The position numbers and the translations under genes are program-made. Source: Candidatus Uhrbacteria bacterium GW2011_GWF2_39_13 (lineage in GTDB: Bacteria > Patescibacteriota > Patescibacteriia > UBA9934 > GWF2-40-263). Taken from it: 44,453 nt of DNA. The stretch covers positions 1-44,453 of the forward strand of contig LBWG01000009.1 of the NCBI GenBank assembly GCA_000993535.1, given 5' to 3'. Below the pieces are notes generated by a model. It saw nothing but the letters and a program-made list of their open reading frames with translations. It was not told where the DNA came from and ran no database searches. Below, piece by piece: positions 10,554-36,613 of the stretch; position 1 is the stretch's first letter, and each line of letters opens with the position of its first letter.

Positions 10554-11864
10554 TTGAATCTCACGTTTAAACAATTTATCGTTCGTTTGCTCTTGGGCTT
10601 TTTGCGCGGGCTTATTTTTATAAAGCGCCACAACGGCTCTTTTTTAAAAAGACTAACTACGCCATTAAAAAAGACAGGTCTATTTTTTGCGCGTTGGGTA
10701 GGGATTCCTTCTTATCGTCTTCTTTTTTTTATTCGTCGTTATGTGCATAAAGTCTTGCTTCCGGCAAAACATCGTATTGTGTTTATTATTTCCAATCGCT
10801 ATACGGTTCACATCATGATGAGTTTTATTGTATTGGGAGTGGCCTGGGTAAATTTATCTGCTCGAGATGTGCGTGCAGAAACGTTTGGTCAACAAAGTTT
10901 GTTGTATCACTTAGTCGTTCAAGATGATTCCTCTCTTTTGGAAGTGGTAGAAGCAGGAGCCCTAGCGGTAAATACCGCCTCAACCTCTTCTTATCTTACT
11001 GATACGATTTTAGATGCCCAGCGACATATTGATCTTGATTATTTGGAGGAAACTTACACTCCTCTTACAGGAGAAGAGGCTCCATCGAGCGAACTATTGG
11101 TTTCCACACGCACACAGATTGAAACTTATATTGTTGCCGATGGAGATACTCTTGGGAAAATTGCTCAGTCTTATGGTTTGAGTTTAAGTACACTTCTTTG
11201 GAGTAATGGGTTAACGTATGCCAGTACTATTCGTCCAGGGCAAGAACTCAAGATTTTACCAGTGGATGGTTTGCTCTACAGTGTAAAAAATGGAGACACT
11301 CTTTCACGTATTGCAAAAAATTATTCGGTTGATGTAGAGACCATTATGAATCAAAATGGTCTGACCAGTGCCGATACCCTTTCCATAGGTGATGAATTAC
11401 TGCTTCCAGGTGGTGAACCTCCTACTCCTATTGCCACAGTTCGTGCAAACGTTTCCATTGGTAATCTTTTTACTGCTCCACAAGTGAGTGCTCCAAACGA
11501 AGTTGTTGGTGGATGGGTGTGGCCAACGGATTGGCATAGTATTACTCAATATTATGGGTGGAAACATACAGGAGTGGATGTTGATGGAGATTATTCAACC
11601 TATAGTTATGCTGCGCGAGATGGGGCGGTAATCTACAGTGGTTGGAGAAACGGATATGGATTTACCGTGGAGGTGGATCATGGAGACGGATACGTTACTC
11701 GTTATGCCCATCATTCAAAGTTGTTTGTGTCTGTGGGGGACGTCGTTACAGCTGGACAAGCCCTTGCTCAGACGGGTTCCACAGGAAGATCGACCGGAAC
11801 ACACTTACACTTTGAAATCATTCGAAATGGAAAATTTCAAAATCCACTTGATTATATAAGATGA
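10554..11864 (+). CDS. membrane-anchored LysM / M23 peptidase
   Basis: A predicted cell-wall endopeptidase acting outside the membrane. 436 aa from a TTG start. The N-terminal 80 residues are basic and partly hydrophobic, and a membrane segment lies at about 84-101. Two LysM domains follow (190-237 and 241-287, both with the DGDTL/NGDTL pattern). The M23 domain occupies about 333-436 with zinc ligands in HTGVD (338-342) and HLHFE (417-421), plus YAHHSKL. All core residues are intact, so activity is expected. The unusual part is the long basic N-terminus before the membrane segment. It has its own promoter, and its terminator is interrupted by a repeat element. Confidence 0.92.
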   Translation: MNLTFKQFIVRLLLGFLRGLIFIKRHNGSFLKRLTTPLKKTGLFFARWVGIPSYRLLFFIRRYVHKVLLPAKHRIVFIISNRYTVHIMMSFIVLGVAWVNLSARDVRAETFGQQSLLYHLVVQDDSSLLEVVEAGALAVNTASTSSYLTDTILDAQRHIDLDYLEETYTPLTGEEAPSSELLVSTRTQIETYIVADGDTLGKIAQSYGLSLSTLLWSNGLTYASTIRPGQELKILPVDGLLYSVKNGDTLSRIAKNYSVDVETIMNQNGLTSADTLSIGDELLLPGGEPPTPIATVRANVSIGNLFTAPQVSAPNEVVGGWVWPTDWHSITQYYGWKHTGVDVDGDYSTYSYAARDGAVIYSGWRNGYGFTVEVDHGDGYVTRYAHHSKLFVSVGDVVTAGQALAQTGSTGRSTGTHLHFEIIRNGKFQNPLDYIR

Positions 11865-12001
11865 AAAACAGGCATACTTGAGGCTGTCCCAAAACTCGCG
11901 ATCTCAACTTTCACGGGCGCCCGTCGACCGCACTCTCCCTATTTTGAATAGGGTTCGTACGGCTCGACAGCCCGTTCAAGTTGAACGTAAGCCTGTTTTT
12001 T
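11864..12001 (+). terminator. terminator split by a palindromic element
   Basis: AAAAACAGGC (11864-11873) is complementary to GCCTGTTTTT (11991-12000). This is the stem of the terminator of the LysM-M23 gene, but the arms are about 117 bp apart because a repeat element occupies the loop. With the element removed, the arms extend further (ATAC with GTAA, one mismatch). Confidence 0.75.
11878..11986 (+). repeat. palindromic element, copy 1 (right arm missing)
   Basis: Contains the left arm (GAGGCTGTCCCAAAACTCG, then CGATCTCAACTT) and the core from CACGGGCGCCCG to CCCGTTCAAGTTGA. The core is essentially identical to the reverse complement of the copy at 34783-34887. The right arm, ATCTCATCGAGTTTT in other copies, is absent after TTGA. 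Confidence 0.85.
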
Positions 12002-26482: not shown

Positions 26483-26566
26483 GAGGTTGTTTCAAAATTT
26501 GATGAGATTGCCTTGAACGGGACGGGCGTCCGTGAAAGGCAAGATCGCGAATTTTGAAACAACCTC
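26483..26566 (-). repeat. palindromic element, copy 2 (short form)
   Basis: 84 bp. The outer arms GAGGTTGTTTCAAAATT and AATTTTGAAACAACCTC are perfect inverted repeats. Inside, GATGAGATTGCCTTGAACGG and CCGTGAAAGGCAAGATCGCG carry the two family-specific inner arms, with a shortened core. It ends 5 bp before tRNA-Arg(UCU). Confidence 0.85.
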
Positions 26567-26571
26567 CTTGT

Positions 26572-26646
26572 GTCCCTGTAGCTCAACGGATAGAGCAGGG
26601 CTCTTCTAAGGCCTTGATGCAGGTTCGATTCCTGCCGGGGACACCA
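26572..26646 (+). tRNA. tRNA-Arg (UCU)
   Basis: The acceptor GTCCCTG pairs with CGGGGAC. The D arm GCTC/GAGC, anticodon loop CTTCTAA (anticodon TCT) and T arm GCAGG-TTCGATT-CCTGC are complete, and the CCA is encoded. A repeat element lies on each side. Confidence 0.95.
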
Positions 26647-26776
26647 GAGACCTTTGCAAAACTCGCGACCTTTGCTTTCACGGGCGCCCGCTGACCCCAC
26701 TCTCCCTACGGTGAGTAGGGTTCTCGGGGCGAAGCCACCCGTTCAAGCAAATCTCATCGAGTTTTGCAAAGGTCTC
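26647..26776 (+). repeat. palindromic element, copy 3 (full form)
   Basis: 130 bp with perfect 19-bp inverted ends (GAGACCTTTGCAAAACTCG and its complement). The inner arms TTTGCTT/AAGCAAA and a core with CACGGGCGCCCG and CCCTACGG-TGAGTAGGG are present. CACCAGA occurs at both borders (26642-26648 and 26776-26782), which looks like a target-site duplication that includes the tRNA CCA end. Confidence 0.88.
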
Positions 26777-27749: not shown

Positions 27750-27904
27750 GAGACCTCTGCAAAACTCGCGATCTTTGCTTTCACGGGCGCCCGCTGACCC
27801 CGCTCTCCCTATGGTGAATAGGGTTTCGTGGGGCTCGACCCGCCCGAACGAACGTTCGACGGTCGGGCGGGCAGTCCGTTCACGCAAATCTCATCGAGTT
27901 TTGT
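27750..27904 (+). repeat. palindromic element, copy 4 (with an extra internal hairpin)
   Basis: The left end GAGACCTCTGCAAAACTCG and the core CACGGGCGCCCGCTGACCCC are intact. The inner right arm ATCTCATCGAGTTTTG is followed by TAACTC instead of the expected complement, so the right tip has decayed. Within the core an additional GC-rich hairpin (CCCGCCCGA/TCGGGCGGG, about 27839-27872) is absent from the other copies. It lies directly upstream of tRNA-His. Confidence 0.85.
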
Positions 27905-33769: not shown

Positions 33770-34747
33770 ATGTTGATTTTTGTTTACGGAGATGACACTT
33801 TTCGGGTGCAAGAAAAAGTTCGACAGATGATAAAAGCATTTCGAGAAAAATTCGATCCTTCAGGATTAAATGTTTCGGAGTATTCCTTTGAAGGAACAAA
33901 AAAAGGAATACTGGGTGAGATATTAGGTTCAGCTCGCACTCTTCCTTTTTTTGGAAAAAAACGAATGATCATCGTAAGACAATTAATTTCTGAAGTTAAA
34001 ACCCCTGAGGTACAAGCTTGGGTTACGGGATTTATTGATCTTCCTGAATCTAGCATTGTAATTTTTTGGGAAACACTTGAACCTAAAGCATTAGAAAAGA
34101 GACCTTTATTTAAAAAGTTATCTGAAATAGCTGAGGTTCATTCGTATACATTTCCTCAACTTCATGGCAGTGCGCTTAATAAATGGGTTCAGATTCGTTT
34201 GAAAGAACGAGGAGCAATCATGGAAACCGAGGCTTTATCTTCTCTTGTCGAACGTGTTGGTCCTGATTTATGGCGTATGGATCAAGAAATAGGAAAGCTT
34301 GTTGCCTATGCTCATGACAAACCGATTACCCTTGAGATGGTTCAAAAACTCGTTCATGAGAATTTTGAAGGAAAAATTTTTACCCTTATTGACGCTATTT
34401 CTCAACGTCATCCTTTAGAAGCCTTTCGTCTGTTACAAGAAGAGCGTTTGTCGGGTACGGATGATCATTATTTACTTACTATGCTTGGCAGACAGGTACG
34501 TATTTTATTAGGAATTCGTGCGATGTTGGAAGAGAATACTCATGTAAATAAACAGGAGATTGCTCAAACACTGGGGATACACCCATTTGTCGCACAAAAA
34601 GGAATGAGTCAGGCTCACGGATTTACTCTGGATCAACTCAAGAGAGTGCATGATTTATTGTTTCAATTTGATTATCAGTTAAAAACAGGCCATCTTGATG
34701 CACAAATGGCTGTTGATTTAACCACGATTGAATTGATTCACTCCTGA
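33770..34747 (+). CDS. holA: DNA polymerase III delta subunit
   Basis: 325 aa, a typical length. It opens and loads the sliding clamp as part of the clamp loader. The family pattern starts MLIFVYGDDTFRVQEKV, followed by the strand-helix region with TLPFFGKKRMIIVR. Later come ALSSLVERVGPDLWRMDQEIGKLVAY and LLTMLGRQVRILLGI, and a C-terminal AHGFTLDQLKRVHDLLFQFDYQLKTG matching the delta collar region. It shares a transcript with polA and converges on rpsT at a terminator interrupted by a repeat element. Confidence 0.93.
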   Translation: MLIFVYGDDTFRVQEKVRQMIKAFREKFDPSGLNVSEYSFEGTKKGILGEILGSARTLPFFGKKRMIIVRQLISEVKTPEVQAWVTGFIDLPESSIVIFWETLEPKALEKRPLFKKLSEIAEVHSYTFPQLHGSALNKWVQIRLKERGAIMETEALSSLVERVGPDLWRMDQEIGKLVAYAHDKPITLEMVQKLVHENFEGKIFTLIDAISQRHPLEAFRLLQEERLSGTDDHYLLTMLGRQVRILLGIRAMLEENTHVNKQEIAQTLGIHPFVAQKGMSQAHGFTLDQLKRVHDLLFQFDYQLKTGHLDAQMAVDLTTIELIHS

Positions 34748-34763: not shown

Positions 34764-34905
34764 AAAAAAGAGACCTGATTTGAGGTTGTCCCAAAACTCG
34801 ATGAGATCAACTTGAACGGGCTGTCGAGCCGTACGAACCCTATTCAAAATAGGGAGAGTGCGGTCGACGGGCGCCCGTGACAACCTCGATTTGGGTCTCT
34901 TTTTT
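34764..34905. terminator. holA/rpsT bidirectional terminator with an element in its loop
   Basis: AAAAAAGAGACC (34764-34775) is the exact complement of GGTCTCTTTTTT (34894-34905). The arms are 118 bp apart because an element fills the loop. GATTTG occurs on both sides of the element (34777-34782, 34888-34893). Removing the element and one repeat yields a normal hairpin with the 7-nt loop TGATTTG. Confidence 0.88.
34783..34887 (-). repeat. palindromic element, copy 5 (left arm shortened)
   Basis: Arms AGGTTGTC/GACAACCT; inner arm CCAAAACTCGATGAGATCAA. The core matches that of copy 1 in reverse complement. The other inner arm (AAAACTCGCGATC) is missing. The element lies between 6-bp direct repeats within the terminator loop. 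Confidence 0.88.
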
Positions 34906-34906
34906 A

Positions 34907-35176
34907 TTATACGCTCAAGAGCGTATGAAGTTTTTTCATGAGCCGGGACTTGTAGCGAGCAACGGTATTTTGTTTGAAGACTTTCTTTTGAACCGCTTTA
35001 TCAAGTTTTTTGCCTACAAGTTGCACAAGGTTTTTCGCTTCGTCCATTTGCTTGCTTGTAAAGGCTTTTCGTACCTTAACACGAAGCGAATGTATTTCTG
35101 CTTTTATCACTTTATTACGCTGAGCATTCTTTTCGTTTTGACGAAGAGCTTTTTTTGCATTGTTGAGCTTTGGCAT
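34907..35176 (-). CDS. rpsT: 30S ribosomal protein S20
   Basis: About 89 aa from the ATG at 35176 (MPKLNNAKKALRQNEKNAQRNK). It is highly basic and helical, with the S20 pattern ALRQNEKNAQRNKVIK, KLDKAVQKKVFKQNTVARYKSRLMKKL. It binds 16S rRNA. A strong minus-strand promoter lies upstream at 35232-35259, giving a leader of about 50 nt. It converges on holA and shares its terminator. Confidence 0.95.
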   Translation of the reverse strand: MPKLNNAKKALRQNEKNAQRNKVIKAEIHSLRVKVRKAFTSKQMDEAKNLVQLVGKKLDKAVQKKVFKQNTVARYKSRLMKKLHTLLSV

Positions 35177-35231
35177 AGAAAACAAAAGGTGTTGAACGAG
35201 TGAATGTTGAACTGTGCATTAAGACCAGATT

Positions 35232-36414: not shown

Positions 36415-36541
36415 AGATTTTGACGATGTGTATGTACTCACGTACTATTGTGATGCGTATAGTATAGCAAAAATGAAGTAACTCTTCGCCTTTTGTTTAG
36501 ATAGAGATTGCAGATAGTATTATTTTACGACACTTATTTAT

Positions 36542-36613
36542 GAGATCTCTTCAAAACTCGATGAGACCTGTCTATTGACAGATAGGTAAGATCGCGAGTT
36601 TTATAAAGATCTC
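36542..36613 (-). repeat. palindromic element, copy 6 (minimal form)
   Basis: 72 bp with arms GAGATCTCTTCAAAACTCG and CGAGTTTTATAAAGATCTC (imperfect). Inner ATGAGACC and GATCG are family-like, but the core is replaced by a small hairpin (ACCTGTCT/AGATAGGT). It lies 5 bp upstream of tRNA-Arg(CCU). Confidence 0.8.

Follow-up and report, generated by a model that had tools for sequence, protein, structure and literature searches.

The window, a stretch of 44,453 nucleotides of Candidatus Uhrbacteria bacterium GW2011_GWF2_39_13 (genome G000, contig LBWG01000009.1, forward strand), carries a convergent gene pair consisting of holA (33770–34747, plus strand), encoding the DNA polymerase III delta subunit (Pfam PF21694 and PF06144), and rpsT (34907–35185, minus strand), encoding ribosomal protein S20 (PF01649). 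Between the two genes lie the arms of a shared terminator, AAAAAAGAGACC on the left (34764–34775) and GGTCTCTTTTTT on the right (34894–34905), and between these arms lies a 106-nt inserted hairpin element, GAGGTTGTCCC...GACAACCTC (34782–34887), which is flanked by two copies of its target duplication, GATTT (34777–34781 and 34888–34892; all of these features are given on the plus strand). A single T (34776) stands between the left arm and the left GATTT, and a single G (34893) between the right GATTT and the right arm. The element begins with a left terminal repeat of the GRGGYTGTCCC end class (GAGGTTGTCCC, 34782–34792) and ends with a remnant of the right terminal repeat (GACAACCTC, 34879–34887). 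An earlier note had read the site as an element between complementary terminator arms with a readable empty site, and this reading is correct base for base; its 105-bp element with a 6-bp repeat, GATTTG, is the same as 106 bp with a 5-bp GATTT, one G being shared. As the note had also predicted, deletion of the element and one repeat restores a perfect terminator: the emptied site folds as a 16-bp spanning hairpin of approximately −19 kcal/mol (z −7.6 relative to shuffles), and the probability that a random position is spanned by a stem as good is 0.0008. When the occupied site is folded, the terminator stem still pairs and the element's own hairpin continues it; the element forms a hairpin in its own right, which would allow the arms to pair below it. 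The claim that the insertion does little harm to the flanking genes draws on this predicted fold, according to which termination in both directions may survive.

To compare empty sites, we read the junction in eight relatives that have the convergent holA-rpsT pair, G005 and seven others. In G005, the closest relative among the genomes compared (HolA 84% identical), the junction is an uninterrupted terminator, AATAAAAAAGAGATCCATACGGATCTCTTTTTTATTATGCGC; likewise, the holA-rpsT junction of G002, G003, G004, G006, G007, G009, and G012 holds an unbroken hairpin that has a T tail. Because the same junction is uninterrupted in all eight, the split hairpin is not a product of chance, and the element is derived in the window genome, where it interrupted an ancestral terminator. 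The comparison that the earlier note had proposed thus came out as it had expected.

The window element belongs to a dispersed family. The genome that carries it contains 19 matches, among them one (C10:2719, on another contig) that is 100% identical over 99 nt. The core pattern was matched 20 times in G000, 50 times in G005, 24 times in G009, 8 times in G018, and twice in G003; the reversed core pattern, used as a control, gave zero matches. In a collection of named genomes, the matches listed include many Ca. Uhrbacteria records (e.g., JACPHU010000002.1), and the remaining listed matches are scattered over unrelated phyla. A typical copy is a non-coding hairpin MITE of ~130 nt with 14-nt complementary ends and target duplications of 4–5 bp, and the commonest end class is GAGACCTCTGCAAAACTCG. 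Among 93 aligned copies, the arms are complementary to 13–14 nt outside the ACTCG core and fall to background beyond that, and target duplications are in excess at both 4 bp (15 vs. 1.2 expected) and 5 bp (5 vs. 0.3 expected). We also considered the variable outer arms as pre-existing target hairpins and rejected this, since the complementarity ends abruptly at 14 nt and the target duplications are external to the arms. The family has these features of a MITE: it is short and non-coding, with terminal inverted repeats (the right one shortened in the window copy), target-site duplications (GATTT in the window and the 4–5 bp excess family-wide), dispersed copies, and empty sites in relatives. 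No autonomous IS with the same ends was found in G000, whose assembly is 68.6% complete, and an Rfam search with the window and eight family loci matched no family for the element. Two copies in the window (26483–26566 and 26647–26776) flank a tRNA gene (26572–26643), and many copies in relatives also adjoin tRNA genes.

C11:37934 and C1:23122 are full-length sisters of the window copy; relative to them, its right arm is short by ~24 nt, missing between GTGA and CAACCTC. The right end of the window copy is complementary to the left end of the same copy (GAGGTTGTC) and departs from the right end of the sisters (GAGGCTGTC). Fold-back copying of the left arm possibly produced this right end, which one substitution plus a deletion would also explain. 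Three copies with identical cores (C9:34782, C9:11880, and C10:2719) each lack part of one arm, at different places. Across the family, the outer arms vary widely while their complementarity is kept. At orthologous sites in G000 (C9:70908, L112; C3:18385, L107; and C7:28449, L111) and G005 (L092, L084, and L103), several paired changes in the outer arms preserve complementarity; for example, paired changes between the two genomes are seen on both sides of C9:70908 (GGTATTCTTTAAA vs. GGAATTTCTTAAA). Inverted repeats are known to become homogenised, and short spacers inverted, when the template switches from one arm to the other (PMC8604942), and the paired changes may reflect either such switching or selection on structure. 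The element at C3:29286 (G000, L107) and its ortholog in G005 (L084:13120–13400) lie in opposite orientation and have different arms, which would fit either spacer inversion or independent replacement. The element at ~36539–36613 of the window and that at L077:7011–7245 of G005 have the outer stem in common, with cores of ~50 and 206 nt, respectively, and the apical part of the family hairpin looks modular. C11:37945, C1:23133, C7:28449, and window 27781–27902 each contain, at a shared inner position, a 33-nt palindrome, CCCGCCCGACCGTCGAACGTTCGTTCGGGCGGG, as a hairpin within a hairpin. In an alignment of 72 copies, GA/GA internal loops are conserved between covarying helices, and on the written strand G-U is commoner than A-C in the helices, the copies being related and in mixed orientation; the loops and the G-U excess hint at selection on an RNA.

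These data bear on two alternative histories of the holA/rpsT site. Instead of transposing, the element might have grown within the terminator through template switching or palindrome accretion, in keeping with arms that evolve together and hairpins nested within hairpins, both of which the family shows; however, such growth does not fit with a copy identical over 99 nt on another contig, with the GATTT that flanks the element, or with the 4–5 bp duplications found family-wide, and we regard it as very improbable. An element-containing ancestor, with loss of the element in the relatives, has an even poorer chance of being true. Short repeats could in principle allow precise excision, but the element is missing, and the terminator ordinary, in at least eight relatives from several genera, and the holA/rpsT copy is young, because its sister copy elsewhere in the same genome is 100% identical over those 99 nt. 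We therefore retain transposition into an uninterrupted terminator as the history of this site.

The earlier note had further suggested a target preference for hairpins. When insertions were catalogued against hairpins and terminators, enrichment was seen in the GRGGYTGTCCC class and not among copies with other ends. Seven of the nine two-sided insertions of this class lie in hairpin loops, mostly those of terminators (P = 4e-5 for hairpin-loop sites relative to other copies, with few sites in the class and related copies counted as independent), whereas the empty sites of ~90 family copies with other ends are no more hairpin-like than random positions. The preference thus holds for GRGGYTGTCCC ends, and hairpin targeting by the whole family is rejected. 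Duplications are present at five of the seven hairpin-loop sites (GATTT, CATTT, GTTTA, CCTCA, and TGTA). A second case in the window (11864–12000, minus strand; C9:11880) is a related element with one arm truncated, which sits in the terminator AAAAACAGGC/GCCTGTTTTT; G005 has this terminator without the element. In reconstructed empty sites, C1:23122 sits in the hairpin AAAACCCCTC/GGAGGGGTTTT, C11:37934 in an imperfect hairpin (z only −1.4), the G003 C15 copy in CACCCC/GGGGTG, and the G039 C45 copy in AAACGGG/CCCGTTT, with no target duplication. For G012, an IS insertion site pieced together from two contig ends gives the hairpin AAAACCATC...GATGGTTTT, contigs 39 and 57 being, we infer, the two sides of one insertion. 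The exceptions within the class are C10:2719, whose site is weak, and G039 C28, whose site has no hairpin; in addition, the old copy at window 26483–26566 begins GAGGTTGT yet lies outside any terminator. In G012, G013, G036, and G048, 13 of the 14 IS termini of this class that lie at contig ends are immediately preceded by an AAAA run; for copies of other classes the figure is 31 of 176 flanks (P = 1e-8), and for random positions it is 12.6%. This run resembles a bidirectional terminator's left arm.

We searched for the helper transposase by Pfam family, transposase protein, end DNA, and end pattern. None of these routes recovered a whole IS with GRGGYTGTCCC-class ends (GRGGCTGTCCCAAAACTC); they yielded only contig ends of this class, at which the assemblies break, and one frameshifted copy of another end class. 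A scan of viral contigs for the end pattern turned up one match, again at a contig end, and PF13751 had zero matches in the window genome (assembly 68.6% complete). The frameshifted copy is in G045, where the transposase gene occupies two frames with PF01609, PF13751, and PF05598. Its best NCBIfam model is IS1182, at 109 bits against a curated cut-off of 270, and it matches IS5-type models more weakly. The G045 IS is bounded by GAGACCACTGCAAAACTC repeats, which are near the commonest family end class and not of the GRGG class. In G013, a stretch beside an IS end, read by eye as ...LISMAHNLKKML followed by a stop, resembles the G045 C-terminus, ...AAIAHNIKIM, a likeness that is short and suggestive only. 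From these data we infer, with moderate strength, that the helper is an IS1182-type transposase.

Two further explanations concern the targeting and its agent. Insertion might be random among intergenic sites, with terminator loops merely being where insertions survive without harm to genes. The genomes are compact and the other-end copies are mostly intergenic and near stop codons, as this would predict; however, other end classes in the same genomes and under the same selection are absent from hairpin loops, and the GRGG-class IS ends repeat the pattern in four other genomes, making survival by itself an improbable cause. As to the agent, the terminator-targeting element might be moved by a transposase other than an IS1182-like one, e.g., IS5- or ISNCY-like, given that the G045 protein has its weaker matches to IS5-type models and that the GRGG-class helper is unseen. 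This is unlikely, as IS1182 is the best model and known terminator targeting belongs to the IS1182 family (PMC4923244).

Taken together, these results make it likely that the holA/rpsT insert is a non-autonomous hairpin MITE with IS1182-like terminal repeats, lodged in the loop of an ancestral terminator. The evidence comes from a metagenome assembly, 68.6% complete, and the points against this explanation include the failure to recover any GRGG-ended IS in full, the zero PF13751 matches in the window genome, and the fact that the sole transposase found is of another end class, frameshifted, and below the IS1182 cut-off. The missing target duplication of IS1272 and the departing sites C10:2719, G039 C28, and G039 C45 count against it as well. 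We propose that an IS1182-type DDE transposase, acting as a helper, would choose hairpins, and that both staggered strand transfers would fall within the loop, so that 4–5 loop nucleotides would be duplicated and both stem arms would survive. The insertion would be nearly neutral, and hence kept, since the terminator arms would pair below the element. After insertion, the window copy would have lost its ~24 nt of the right arm, possibly via fold-back copying of the left arm. More tentatively, and with a chance well short of even, the whole could be a mobile-hairpin family in which shape, and not sequence, maintains the terminal repeats, and in which one end class lands on terminator hairpins, with the loop duplicated and the terminator still capable of folding; fast-drifting arms that stay complementary through template-switch copying or structural selection would be part of the same doubtful reading. 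The sites described here provide clean before and after states of loop-duplicating terminator insertion, a branch earlier drawn only as a hypothesis for IS1272-like transposition. Such insertion may offer mobile DNA a route to spread in the compact genomes of Patescibacteria with little harm, and the naturally varied hairpin ends of the family could be used to ask whether a transposase reads structure or sequence.

Among known systems, bacterial MITEs such as the QMITEs of Coxiella have many intergenic copies and stable stem-loop transcripts (PMC10969869). The Uhrbacteria family is similarly short and gene-free, with terminal inverted repeats, target duplications, and many intergenic copies; unlike the QMITEs, its outer repeats diverge strongly between copies without losing complementarity, and one of its end classes is associated with terminator loops. 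SPRITE, RUP, and BOX of Streptococcus pneumoniae are small interspersed hairpin repeats, of which SPRITE is terminator-like (PMC10969869). By description, the Uhrbacteria family is also made up of small interspersed hairpin repeats, but its element inserts inside an existing terminator, whereas SPRITE itself resembles one. IS1272 and TnSha1, of the IS1182 family in Staphylococcus, insert into hairpins without primary sequence specificity, and RNA-seq confirmed several of their target hairpins as terminators; their insertion removes part of the hairpin (the tip) and makes no target duplication (PMC4923244, PMC5678879). The Uhrbacteria element shares with them insertion sites in hairpins, several of which are terminators, here for the GRGGYTGTCCC end class only. 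It differs in that its insertion keeps the stem and duplicates 4–5 loop nucleotides, as seen in the window, where the stem is intact and GATTT is duplicated. It also differs in having no transposase; the window element, at 106 nt and non-coding, is at most a non-autonomous derivative. Among the possible branches, Wan et al. listed one in which the loop alone is duplicated (pathway c, Fig 13; PMC5678879), and the Uhrbacteria insertions look like this branch. By analogy, the element would work like an IS1182 hairpin-targeting element and is at most a putative member of that family. Terminator targeting by IS1182-family elements is already known; what differs here is the 4–5 nt duplication and a terminator left foldable.
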